In this document: one piece after another, positions 561 to 59,730 of the stretch
Layout of the letters: every line of letters begins with the position of its first letter
Position numbering within the stretch: the first letter of the stretch is position 1
Origin: Bacteroidia bacterium
GTDB taxonomy: Bacteria; Bacteroidota; Bacteroidia; B-17B0; Aurantibacillaceae
DNA: 64,000 nt
Direction of reading: 5' to 3'
Assembly (NCBI GenBank): GCA_026414605.1
Contig: JAOAIP010000021.1
Coordinates: 1-64,000 of the forward strand
Notes under the pieces: generated by a model
What the model was told of the DNA's origin: nothing
Seen by the model: the letters and a program-made list of their open reading frames with translations, nothing else
Database searches by the model: none
Made by a program: the position numbers and the translations under genes

Positions 561-1133
561 ATGAGTAAATATCCTGTAAAAAAGCCAAGTAAAATTGAAA
601 TTGTAAAAGCACCTGATGGATTAGAAGGTCCGGGATTTTTTGCTACTTCATTAGAAAAGGTTGTAGGATTAGCAAGGAAAAATTCACTTTGGCCATTGCC
701 TTTTGCTACTTCGTGTTGCGGTATTGAATTTATGGCTACGATGGCTTCTACTTATGATTTAGCAAGATTTGGTTCAGAACGACTTTCATTCTCGCCCCGA
801 CAAGCCGACTTGCTAATGGTGATGGGAACAATTGCCAAAAAAATGGGACCTACACTTCGTCAGGTATATGAGCAAATGGCGGAGCCGAAGTGGGTACTTT
901 CAGTAGGAGCGTGTGCCAGCAGTGGTGGTATTTTTGATACTTATAGTGTATTACAAGGCATTGATAGAATAATCCCTGTGGATGTCTATGTACCGGGCTG
1001 TCCACCAAGACCTGAACAAATCATTGAAGGTATTTTGAAAATTCAACAATTGGCAGAAAATGAATCTTTGAGAAGAAGAGATTCTGTGCAATACAAGAAA
1101 ATGCTTGAGAGTTATGGCATAGAAGTTCAATAG
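561..1133 (+). CDS. nuoB: NADH-quinone oxidoreductase subunit B
   Basis: Peripheral-arm subunit of respiratory complex I that carries the terminal [4Fe-4S] cluster N2, which hands electrons to quinone. The 190-residue product has all four expected ligands: adjacent Cys52-Cys53 in ATSCCGIEF, Cys118 in VGACASSGG and Cys147 in PGCPPRPE. Length is normal for the family. In most Bacteroidota nuoC follows directly; here a 719 bp gap filled by repeat DNA intervenes, so co-transcription with nuoC must read through that insert. Identification is secure. Confidence 0.97.
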
Positions 1134-1194
1134 ATGAACTCTTTATAAAAGTGGAAAGTGAAAAGTGGAAAGTGGAAAGTGAAATTTGAAGAAT

Positions 1195-1320
1195 ATGAAA
1201 ATACAGAGATTTGAAGGTATCATTGCTTGGCAAAGAGTAAAGGATTTAGGTGTCAGTATTTATACTGATTTTCTGTAAATAAAGATTTTTGATTTAAAGA
1301 TCAAATTCAACGATCGGAAA
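1195..1320 (+). pseudogene. Truncated, frameshifted four-helix-bundle (23S rRNA IVS-type) gene remnant
   Basis: The frame opens MKIQRFEGIIAWQRVKDLGV and stops at TAA 1276-1278. The opening matches the N-terminus of the four-helix-bundle / 23S rRNA intervening-sequence protein family (PF05635 type), normally about 115-125 residues. Compared with the copy near 14.2 kb it has lost one base near 1269, which causes the stop; in another frame the family motif FKDQIQRS is still readable up to about 1316. Coding similarity ends there and heptamers begin, so the rest of the gene is missing, not merely mutated. Confidence 0.7.
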
Positions 1321-1365
1321 AACTTTCTACTTTCAACTTTTGACTTTTAACTGAAGTTTGCGTGA

Positions 1366-1852: not shown

Positions 1853-2386
1853 ATGCGTAGAAAAGTTCAGATACCTGTTGATGAGAAACAAAAACAATTA
1901 TTAGAAGAAATTCAACAGGATATTCAACAACAATTTCCTAATGCTTTGATTTCTGCGGAATTGCCGTATAATTTTCCAACACTTACTATTCATCATCATT
2001 TTATTAAAGATGTTTTGAAATACTTGAAAGAAAGCCCAAAGTGGAATTTCTTTTTCTTAACGGACTTGACAGGTATTCAAACGCCTGATGAACAGCATTT
2101 GGGCGTGATTTATCATTTGCATAATATGATAACCAATCATAGAGTAAGAGTAAAAACATTTTTTGGGATAGATAAACCTGAAATACCTACGGTAACAGAT
2201 CTTTGGAAAACTGCTAATTGGATGGAAAGAGAAACATACGATTTTTTTGGTATTATATTCAAAGGACATCCTGATTTGAGAAGGATATTAAATCCTGATG
2301 AAATGGATATTTTTCCTTTGAGAAAAGAATTTCCTGTAGAAGATCAAACTCGTGAAGATAAAGATGATACTATGTTTGGTAGATGA
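1853..2386 (+). CDS. nuoC: NADH-quinone oxidoreductase subunit C
   Basis: Complex I peripheral-arm subunit (30 kDa subunit family), 177 residues. The family signature is ERETYDFFGIIFKGHPDLRR near residues 125-145, followed by the typical PLRKEFPVED segment. NuoC and NuoD are separate genes here, not fused as in Escherichia coli. Upstream is the composite repeat. Its TGA stop overlaps the ATG of the MNT gene (ATGATGA), so translation of the toxin-antitoxin pair may be coupled to nuoC. Confidence 0.95.
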   Translation: MRRKVQIPVDEKQKQLLEEIQQDIQQQFPNALISAELPYNFPTLTIHHHFIKDVLKYLKESPKWNFFFLTDLTGIQTPDEQHLGVIYHLHNMITNHRVRVKTFFGIDKPEIPTVTDLWKTANWMERETYDFFGIIFKGHPDLRRILNPDEMDIFPLRKEFPVEDQTREDKDDTMFGR

Positions 2387-2727
2387 TGACAAACGATTCA
2401 ATATACTTTGATAATGCTTTATTAGAATTGCAGAACATATTCAAAAAATTTTTTGATAAATCATCAAAAGAGGTAGTAGTGTATTTATTTGGATCAAGAG
2501 TGCGTAATGATTTTTTGAGGACATCGGATATAGATATAGCAATTAAGAATATCAGTAAGTTAGAGAAAGCATTATTGGAAGAAGCCATTGATGAATCTAA
2601 TATCATTTACAAAGTAGATGTGTCTTTATGGGAAGAATTACCCAAAGAATTAAAAGAAGAAATTTTGAAAGAAGGTAAAATTATTTATAGAAATGATAGA
2701 ACTGAAGAAGTCCACAGAATTATTTGA
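2383..2727 (+). CDS. MNT-type nucleotidyltransferase, antitoxin of a HEPN-MNT pair
   Basis: A 114-residue minimal nucleotidyltransferase. The motif GSRVRNDF followed by SDIDIAI supplies the GS and paired Asp of the polymerase-beta fold, with a third acidic strand VDVSLWEEL about 40 residues later. In HEPN-MNT modules this protein modifies or masks the HEPN partner to neutralise it; that role is inferred from family and pairing. Start may be the ATG at 2383 or 2386. It overlaps both nuoC and the HEPN gene, which is typical of a tightly coupled module. Confidence 0.85.
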   Translation: MMTNDSIYFDNALLELQNIFKKFFDKSSKEVVVYLFGSRVRNDFLRTSDIDIAIKNISKLEKALLEEAIDESNIIYKVDVSLWEELPKELKEEILKEGKIIYRNDRTEEVHRII

Positions 2728-3097
2728 AAAGTCCTTGCAAACATTGACAGATATTTTGCAACAAAGAAAGAAATCTGTGGATAAAGATATTTTAAGAGAT
2801 GCTACAATTCAACGATTTGAATACAATGCGGATGTATTTTGGAAATTACTAAAAGTATTTTTATTTCATCAACACGGAATGGCTTGTCAATCGCCTAAAT
2901 CGTGTATTCGTGAAGCATTTAATAATGGACTTGTCAACGAACAGGAATGTGCGCTATTGCTTGAAATGATGGATGATAGAAATTTGACATCGCATACTTA
3001 CCATTTTGATTTATTTGAAAAGATATTCATCAAAATTATTGATTACGAAAAAATAATGAGGGAAGTATTGAACAGAATAAAAAACTCAATCAATTAA
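2693..3097 (+). CDS. HEPN-domain protein (HI0074-like), toxin of a HEPN-MNT pair
   Basis: A 134-residue helical protein of the nucleotidyltransferase substrate-binding / HI0074 family. The expected RX4H-type active motif is present as RNLTSHTYH at about residues 97-105, so the RNase-like site looks intact. The ATG at 2693 lies within the MNT gene (35 bp overlap). Known relatives act as RNases or are AMPylated by their MNT partner. Its setting between nuoC and nuoD is unusual. The next gene, nuoD, starts 33 bp later. Confidence 0.85.
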   Translation: MIELKKSTELFEKSLQTLTDILQQRKKSVDKDILRDATIQRFEYNADVFWKLLKVFLFHQHGMACQSPKSCIREAFNNGLVNEQECALLLEMMDDRNLTSHTYHFDLFEKIFIKIIDYEKIMREVLNRIKNSIN

Positions 3098-13736: not shown

Positions 13737-14385
<649 letters not shown>

Positions 14386-14390
<5 letters not shown>

Positions 14391-15456
14391 TTCCATCACT
14401 CATTCCTACGGCTACACCATTTTTCTTCAAAAGATATTTAGGGCGTGAAGCATAGATTCGTTCTATGATATTCACTACTTTTAATCCCTCCAAAGCATTG
14501 GTTGTAGCAGTGTGTTTGCCCTTCAAGGTTTCCACCACATTTTCAATAACATAATGATGATTGTTGGCAGAACCTTTGTATGATCCATAGTCATTAGCAG
14601 GATTAGTGGGCGGCAATTCAGGCATAACATAATCTTTGATGTGACAATACTCCACCTTATCCATATATTGCCCTCCTACCTTTACCGAACCCTTACTACC
14701 AATCACTGTAATAGAAGATTCCAAATTTTTATCCCATACAGCAGTAGAATAATTTATACATCCTATTCCTTGATTGACAAATTCAAACTGCACTAATCCA
14801 CTGTCTTCAAAGTCCGTCAAATGCTGATGATTAAAATCCGCAAAAGTACCTTTGATATTTGTAATATCTCCAAAAATCCAATACAGCAAATCTATCCAAT
14901 GCGAAAATTGCGTAAACAAAGTACCTCCATCTAATTCTTGTGTTCCTTTCCAATTCTTTCCTGTATAATATCTTTCATCTCTGTTCCAATAACAATTTAG
15001 TTGTACAATATAAATATCCCCAATAATTTTTTTATCTACAATTTCTTTCAGCCATTGAGAAGGCGGTGAGTATCTATTTTGCATCACACAAAACACTTGC
15101 TTATGGTACTTTAATGCAGTATAAATGATTTTTTCTGCGTCTTGTGTTGTAAGAGCCAAAGGTTTTTCTACCACCACATGCTTTTGATGAGATAAACAAT
15201 CAATGGCTTGTTGAGCGTGCAATCCATTAGGAGTACAGATATTCACCACTTCTATTTCAGGATGTTGCTTTAGCATTTCCAAATAATCCTGATAAAATGG
15301 TTCTTTTAAATCCTTTAATCCTAAAACACTTTTATCTTGAACATCACACACCGCCACTAATTCACAATGCGGATTTCTTCTTATCATTTCTGCATGTCTC
15401 TTGCCTATATGACCTTGACCTATGACTGCAAATTTTATTTTATTATTCATAAACAA
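14386..15456 (-). CDS. Gfo/Idh/MocA oxidoreductase, WbpB-like
   Basis: A 356-residue NAD(P)-dependent sugar dehydrogenase. The Rossmann motif is VIGQGHIGKRHAEMI, the catalytic EKP motif is VVEKPLALT near residue 96, and the C-terminal domain has the usual beta-sheet with GGTLFTQFSHWIDLLYW. With a wbpD-like acetyltransferase 21 bases upstream and a WbpA-type dehydrogenase downstream, 3-oxidation of a UDP-GlcNAc-uronate is the likely reaction. Start is the ATG at 15456 or the one at 15450 (MNNKIKF). Its last codons GGA-AAG-TAG merge with the heptamer array, which supplies the stop. Confidence 0.85.
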
Positions 15457-31567: not shown

Positions 31568-31728
31568 AGATTTAAATTTTGGGCTTAATAATAAGAAATT
31601 TATTACAAATAAAAGAAATGGTTAATTTATTCTTATGAAAATCATCACAAATAAACTTTTTCGGCAAAATTTTTTTGAGGTGCTTAATAGGATTTTAATT
31701 AGTATAAATTGATTTTTTAGTTTTTTTG

Positions 31729-31810
31729 AATTTCAGACGGCCTGAAGTCCATCCTTACAATACAAAGAGAGTCGTGCCTACAGCACTCTTTCTTTATCAT
31801 AAATACTAAC
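31729..31810 (-). repeat. REP-like element, type A, copy 1
   Basis: Inverted copy of 37794-37871. Shared core on the minus strand: GTGC(T)GTAGGCACGA, then TTTGTATTGTAAGGATGGAC and CTTCAGGCCGTCTGAAAT. It contains a short GTGC/GCAC hairpin. It lies in the 476 bp gap 31568-32043 with a heptamer element at 31881-32010; the rest of the gap shows nothing. Confidence 0.65.
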
Positions 31811-31880: not shown

Positions 31881-32010
31881 TTTACCACAAAGAACACATT
31901 AGTGAAAAGTAGAAAGTTACAAGTTTGAAAGCAGAAAGAATTTTTTCAATTTAATGATGTAGCGTTCAAATACTTTTCACTTTGAACTTTCAACTAATTA
32001 TTGTGGTTAA
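31881..32010. repeat. Heptamer-flanked MITE-like element
   Basis: Begins TTTACCACAAAGAACACATTAGT, then AAAAGTAGAAAGTT heptamers, a core TTCAATTTAATGATGTAGCG, reverse heptamers (ACTTTTCACTTTGAACTTTC) and an imperfect inverted end ACTAATTATTGTGGTTAA. It matches the element at 58844-58971 in the opposite orientation from end to end, core included. Confidence 0.75.
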
Positions 32011-37793: not shown

Positions 37794-37871
37794 GTTAGTG
37801 TCTATAAAAAAGTGCCGTAGGCACGATTCCCTTTTTGTATTGTAAGGCTGAACTTCAGTCCGTCCGAAATA
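37794..37871 (+). repeat. REP-like element, type A, copy 2
   Basis: Contains the perfect hairpin GTGCC-GTA-GGCAC (37812-37824) and, further on, GCTGAA-C-TTCAGT. Aligns with the inverted copy at 31729-31810 over about 78 bases. It occupies the 575 bp gap 37680-38254 together with the type B element; 38015-38254 shows no feature. Confidence 0.65.
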
Positions 37872-37924
37872 TAAATCCGCGTCCAACAAAGATCCATCGG
37901 ATCGGATCATATTTAATCATCAAA

Positions 37925-58843: not shown

Positions 58844-58971
58844 CTTAATAATTAGTTCAAAGTAAAAAGTAAAAAGTATTAAAACGCTACATCATTAAAT
58901 TGAAAAATATTTCCTTTTACTTTCAAACTTGTAACTTTTCACTTTTTACTAATGTGTTCTTTGTGGTAAAA
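58844..58971. repeat. Heptamer-flanked MITE-like element (inverted relative to 31.9 kb copy)
   Basis: Runs from AATAATTAGTTCAAAG through AAAAAGT heptamers, a core CGCTACATCATTAAATTGAA, reverse heptamers and the terminus ACTAATGTGTTCTTTGTGGTAAA (58948-58970). The reverse complement aligns with 31881-32010 along its whole length. Confidence 0.75.
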
Positions 58972-59647: not shown

Positions 59648-59730
59648 TCCTTATACTTTTTTACTTTATACTTTTTTACTTTCAAACTTTTCACTTTCCA
59701 CTTTTTACTAATGTGTTCTTTGTAATAAAA
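59648..59730. repeat. Partial heptamer element
   Basis: Reverse heptamers (TACTTTTTTACTTTATAC, then CTTTTCACTTTCCACTTTTT) lead to the terminus ACTAATGTGTTCTTTGTAATAAA, nearly the same end as at 58971. No matching left end is seen, so one half is missing. The rest of the 488 bp gap (59460-59947) holds only the glutamine synthetase promoter and A+T-rich sequence. Confidence 0.6.

Follow-up and report, generated by a model that had tools for sequence, protein, structure and literature searches.

A 64,000-nucleotide stretch of contig JAOAIP010000021.1, from a bacterium of the Aurantibacillaceae (assembly GCA_026414605.1), probably contains two internally deleted copies of a small selfish DNA unit. 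The intact form consists of a gene for a four-helix-bundle protein (IVP/Avd fold) between two arrays of seven-base repeats, and occupies the gap in an operon from one gene's stop codon to the start codon of the following gene; we give this reading a probability of about 0.6. The unit is best read as an undescribed, DNA-level, operon-dwelling element whose arms are matched heptamer arrays. The whole stretch is called the window below.

Two truncated units in the window

Units 1 and 2 (Table 1) each carry the start (~43 codons) of a four-helix-bundle (IVP/TIGR02436) gene with an inverted heptamer array on either side; the two units are inverted copies of each other, 93–100% complementary. The window has 27 occurrences of RAAAGTNRAAAGT, which represents two adjacent RAAAGTN-type heptamers; shuffles give an expectation of 0.20. 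Unit 1 lies between two co-directional genes, one nuoB-like and one nuoC-like, and beyond its right array the right-flank DNA that it has in common with other units (GAAGTTTGCGTGA...) passes into a mosaic repeat of larger size. A first-pass annotation, made from the sequence alone, had described inward heptamers, a four-helix-bundle gene start and reverse-complement heptamers at 1147–1356, and a second fragment of the same plan at 14131–14390; both descriptions hold, with the limits given in Table 1. Its statement that the two genes are cut at the same codon is true at the DNA level, where both pieces end directly after the QIQ(R/Q)S codons and the other truncated copies of the genome have the same junction; it fails for the reading frame of copy 1, in which a frameshift and a stop precede the cut.

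Table 1. Heptamer-array units of the window and the genes next to unit 1
Feature	Position	Strand	Remark
Unit 1, whole	1147-1352	+	
Unit 1 left heptamer array	1147-1181	+	(A/G)AAAGTG x5
Unit 1 truncated four-helix-bundle gene	1195-1316	+	ATG at 1195; cut after FKDQIQRS; internal frameshift and stop; family from PF05635 on full-length copy
Unit 1 right array	1321-1352	+	Left heptamers in reverse complement
GAAGTTTGCGTGA	1353-1365	+	Right flank common to most units of the genome
Unit 2, whole	14144-14393	-	
Unit 2 left heptamer array	14317-14393	-	~11 repeats
Unit 2 truncated four-helix-bundle gene	14181-14303	-	Frame open to FKDQIQQS
Unit 2 right array	14144-14175	-	
Gene-less array-core-array unit	4480-4586		
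Gene-less array-core-array unit	31902-31997		
Gene-less array-core-array unit	58854-58952		Core related to that of 31902-31997
Partial unit	59651-59711		Right array alone
nuoB-like gene	561-1133	+	Upstream of unit 1; translation read by eye
nuoC-like gene	1853-2386	+	Downstream of unit 1; translation read by eye

Full-length relatives and their arms

The family (PF05635) is present in 68 of 80 related genomes. Its full-length members have about 113–145 residues, a wider range than the 115–125 of the first-pass annotation. A broad alignment of 22 sequences contains no stretch sufficiently conserved for scanning a collection, and a 7-sequence alignment was used instead.

Sequence identity at lags of 7, 14 and 21 bases is elevated in both flanks of the full-length genes and is flat 500 bases away. 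At 80 loci, lag-7 identity in the two flanks is 0.379 and 0.358, as opposed to 0.287 and 0.289 for 581 large control ORFs of the same loci; 232 small control ORFs give 0.281 and 0.285, and neither control set has the peaks at lags 7, 14 and 21. The top-scoring control (L144, from 4468) is a 796-codon ORF between strongly inverted arrays of a longer repeat, ATACATTATACAACA.

In the 30 best copies, the flanks are mostly imperfect period-7 arrays on both sides, inverted relative to each other, with a heptamer that is the same within one element and differs between elements; the inverted score is 26.9 for an element's own pair of flanks and 15.8 for mixed pairs. A strict 99th-percentile cut on the match score catches only 49% of the elements because the arrays are imperfect and gapped; a single-flank cut catches 7%. 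Group means and per-element array and similarity tests on 142 elements were used in place of such cuts. A significant period-7 array is present upstream of 97 of these elements, downstream of 104, on both sides of 77 and on at least one side of 124 (5% expected per side). Most full-length homologues do have arrays, and the array-gene-array plan that the first-pass annotation had proposed for the intact element is seen in the genome itself and in many others. Array segments are also not scattered without relation to the family, the outcome that the annotation had set against its own reading: 61% of them fall within 8.7% of the sequence, clustered at helix-bundle genes, although gene-less arrays are common and in the window's own genome outnumber the gene-bearing units. 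Inspection by eye of 63 array segments away from the gene revealed no other recurrent cargo family.

The two arms of one element match as inverted copies. Among the 77 two-armed elements, heptamer similarity is 0.75 for an element's own arms inverted, 0.34 for its own arms in direct orientation and 0.415 between elements, and the inverted match exceeds the direct one in 72 of the 77, so that the ends are complementary like those of ribosomal intervening sequences. The heptamer drifts between elements, and the two arms of an element stay together. Across elements it has the grammar NNNTNAG (2.79 bits; the null maximum is 2.18). Heptamer similarity tracks protein identity only above 60% identity, which is no evidence of specific recognition, and co-evolution of protein and heptamer was dropped as a sign of it.

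Distribution

The array-gene-array plan is widespread. Five bacterial phyla or more have it, and it is seen again in Desulfobacterota, Campylobacterota, Omnitrophota and Cyanobacteria. Genomes of Ignavibacteriae, Fodinibius, KSB1, Omnitrophota, Syntrophobacterales and Sulfurovum also exhibit the flank signal (lag 7, 0.401 and 0.350), with the KSB1, Omnitrophota and Sulfurovum assignments less safe because several of the genomes are metagenome bins. An independent sample, drawn from the phylum to which the Syntrophobacterales genome belongs, has the gene in 36 of 59 genomes, and 29 loci give lag-7 values of 0.378 and 0.354. Plasmid four-helix-bundle genes of Nostoc, Calothrix and Anabaena lie between inverted arrays of near-perfect heptamers, such as GGGAGTA, GGGAACA and TAGGGTG. 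On plasmids of two cyanobacterial genera, a unit is situated between cas6 and cas4 (L281 and L282); the heptamers of the two differ, and the cas loci look like type I-D. Phage records contain no protein match for the gene at the cut-off used.

Placement in operons and at stop codons

In 76 of 76 cases the gene points the same way as its upstream neighbour, in 71 of 72 as its downstream neighbour, and in 69 of 70 as both; among adjacent control pairs, 74% are co-directional. In total, 151 elements occupy 78 distinct junctions, named here from our own reading of the neighbouring proteins. Recurrent among them are fadB|fadA (29), fadA|acyl-CoA dehydrogenase (13), sdhA|sdhB (6) and hisB|hisH (4), together with junctions in suf, pdh and atp operons, and the fadB|fadA hot spot has at least three origins on the protein tree. 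Two units (L044 and L273) directly adjoin tRNA genes rather than protein genes.

Two features tie the array to the upstream stop codon. First, G peaks at positions +2, +9, +16 and +23 from the stop (0.47 each), with a phase fraction of 0.44 against a null maximum of 0.374 and no phase in the controls. Second, the upstream stop is TAG at 43 of 78 junctions (55%) and in 134 of 570 controls (23.5%; p=4e-8). The phase lock and the TAG excess together indicate that the array begins inside the stop codon.

The strict co-direction with operons would also suit a unit that acts as RNA, an mRNA version of the 23S rRNA intervening sequence in which paired arms form a hairpin in the operon mRNA, RNase III cleaves this hairpin, the excised piece is bound by the protein, and any spread proceeds via RNA. 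The protein family is that of the rRNA intervening sequences, whose terminal inverted repeats are cut by RNase III (PMC4990558), and an element's own arms form strong RNA duplexes (median -52 kcal/mol versus -36 kcal/mol for mixed pairs). However, mismatches between arms show no bias toward G-U pairs (172 G-U compatible, 190 A-C; p=0.37), two of eight cyanobacterial copies are antisense to both neighbours, and the gene-less units of the window's own genome are in mixed orientation; an RNA-level unit is thus unlikely. Covariation of the arms as RNA finds no support in the mismatches either. The arms appear to be matched as DNA, not visibly by RNA pairing, and this match, along with gene-less derivatives that share the arms only, speaks for a unit of DNA with the arms as the handled ends.

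Filled and empty sites

Comparison between close relatives, along the lines that the first-pass annotation had suggested for strains, reveals that filled and empty versions of the same junction both exist. Within one family, the sdhA|sdhB spacer is 2–46 bases in empty genomes and ~410–610 bases with a unit; in one family, likewise, fadB|fadA is 9–33 bases empty and ~450–700 filled. Gene-less array-array remnants of 77–184 bases are present at both junctions. Even next to FadA proteins that are 97% identical, the junction is filled (495) in one genome and empty (21) in the other. Four junctions are filled in genome G010 and empty in G016, two genomes that are 92–97% identical; whichever way the change ran, the 10–16 base spacer is exchanged in its entirety, no target-site duplication is found in these four pairs of full-length units (unlike MITEs), and the stop is altered at three of the four (TAA to TAG, TAA to TGA, and GEVV* to GEVES*). 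Loss rather than gain fits some of the empty sites equally well. Within a genome, full-length copies are mostly diverged, with a best identity of 74% between different sites; no recent full-length copies were found within a genome, and active full-length transposition is therefore not directly seen.

Sites that are empty in close relatives also bear on whether the arrays might be ordinary microsatellites, grown by polymerase slippage from stop codons and tolerated by a vertically inherited, host-useful operon gene. Growth from the stop codon would suit the phase lock, junction labels cluster on the protein tree (36 changes versus a shuffled mean of 63), and heptamers are over-represented among bacterial simple repeats according to work cited in PMC4692102. 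Empty sites, the lack of arrays at control genes of any size, and arms that match in inverted orientation within one element and differ between elements nevertheless make this explanation very doubtful.

Copies in the whole genome

The window's own genome (2.48 Mb in 76 contigs) contains 10 truncated copies, the two in the window included, which are 85–95% identical and all have the same cut junction. They support the proposal, already made in the first-pass annotation, that the two units in the window arose by internal deletion, and show that such derivatives have multiplied. One full-length gene is present (C48:9017-9325; PF05635, E 1.5e-34, the IVP/S23p family), with the same AAAGT arms upstream; an array pair with a different core comes after its stop. 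At ~20 more sites the AAAGT arms are kept around a core that lacks the gene, and these cores appear, when read by eye, to have diverged from a single one; overall, gene-less array-core-array units number in the dozens. Because the arms are common to units while the cores vary, it is the arms that define what the units share. An array-core-array pattern scan yields 140 matches over all registers, with at least 20 distinct places among the matches listed; a reversed control pattern yields none in this genome, and the array-core-array pattern has no match in three genomes of the same genus or in two of the same family.

The truncated and gene-less units have terminal inverted repeats, many copies and no transposase of their own, as MITEs do. 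The only full-length unit with matching arms encodes a four-helix-bundle protein and not a transposase.

In this genome, the right flank of the units is also part of a larger repeat, with which they may travel. That the truncated copies are passengers of this mosaic repeat, GAAGTTTGCGTGAGGGATGCGGAGGGCGG..., moved by unrelated machinery, is improbable: the right flank GAAGTTTGCGTGAGGGATGCGGAGGGCGG... is common to most units, the left flank CTCACCCCCTTTTATT often is too, and the window repeats I2 and I3 lengthen the pair by ~160 bases, but the units at 31902–31997 and 58854–58952 have other flanks and yet the same arms, and unit 1 is without the left flank CTCACCCCCTTTTATT.

Proposed mechanism

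Under the preferred reading of a DNA unit, whose anatomy, matched inverted arms, intra-operon placement and gene-less derivatives are observed directly, the arms would be the ends handled during copying, and the oligomeric helix-bundle protein that the unit encodes would probably bind them. A new copy would join at a stop codon, the T-(N)-A-G of which fits one repeat. The arms may stay alike by one being copied from the other at the DNA level, through a hairpin or foldback, and gene-less units with the same arms, here the copies in the window as well as units whose cores are non-coding, would ride in trans. It is plausible that the unit is selfish and that the helix-bundle protein drives its spread by binding the arms and promoting copying; the constant association of gene and arms points to such a role, as does the relationship to Avd, a factor that diversity-generating retroelements cannot do without in retrohoming (PMC10053308). 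Against this reading, the unit holds no enzyme of known catalytic function.

More broadly, and at slightly under even odds, there may be a transposase-free class of selfish elements over many phyla, each made of heptamer arrays and an oligomeric helix-bundle protein that recognises them, targeted to stop codons inside operons and with arms rewritten from each other, of which the cyanobacterial and Xanthomonas heptamers and the rRNA intervening sequences would be relics or relatives.

Relation to known systems

The closest counterparts are the 23S rRNA intervening sequences of Coxiella and Leptospira that carry an S23p/IVP ORF, which resemble the present units in protein family, in complementary ends around the ORF and in suspected mobility (mobility has been proposed; PMC4990558). 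They differ in their site. None of four conserved 23S motifs is present in any locus checked, and the units lie between protein-coding operon genes, with tandem heptamer ends peculiar to each element. Avd is a distant relative of the same fold class (PMC10053308). Unlike it, none of three scanned proteins passes the Avd model NF033474 (NCBIfam): L060 reaches 43.5 bits against a cut-off of 80, the other two have no match, and the family is called as TIGR02436, with scores above its cut-off.

The arrays themselves have published parallels. Xanthomonas and Nostoc carry arrays of the heptamers GGGAATC and GGGGA(C/T)T, which in Xanthomonas form 70–75 inverted pairs, located between aligned ORFs and near or overlapping stop codons (Rehm 2015, PMC4692102). 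The present arrays, compared with Xanthomonas by its published description, exhibit the same features: tandem heptamers, often in inverted pairs, between aligned ORFs and near stops. That paper gives no gene link, no mobile element and no function (PMC4692102), whereas here a partner gene is named. A further heptamer case is known from Beggiatoaceae, with direct repeats of TAACTGA (PMC4679880). MITEs and REP/RAYT systems are alike in being small, non-autonomous inverted-repeat units multiplied in a genome with one gene-bearing unit; the present units differ in having no transposase, no target-site duplication seen, and variable heptamer arrays as ends. The inverted arrays around the plasmid genes of Nostoc, Calothrix and Anabaena are linked by context to the short tandemly repeated heptamers (STRR) of cyanobacteria. 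In the open-licence literature, no paper was found that joins the helix-bundle gene with heptamer arrays.

The unit may explain seven-base repeats noticed long ago in other bacteria, and would tie together three unexplained matters: the role of a protein family that is very common, the heptamer arrays, and the mobility of rRNA intervening sequences. What it offers for study is an identified protein, a DNA or RNA sequence peculiar to each element as the candidate ligand, sites that are naturally filled or empty, and non-autonomous derivatives. Insertion exactly at the stop codons of housekeeping operons would be a targeting rule that, to our knowledge, is not known in other elements.

Other features of the window

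No Rfam family matches anywhere in the 64 kb. A large mosaic repeat, GGGATGCGGAGGGCGGCG ... GCAATCTC ... TTCGCAATGACG, is found at 1481–1696 and 13848–14138; its inverted copies adjoin both units, and it also adjoins many units elsewhere in the genome. Small HEPN-like and nucleotidyltransferase (MNT)/HEPN-partner-like genes lie amid the nuo genes at 94–555 and 2383–3097, and bases 2–142 and 403–543 are 70% alike. Finally, the sequences at 31725–31769 and 37831–37875, 6 kb apart, form a 45-base inverted repeat that is 84% complementary.
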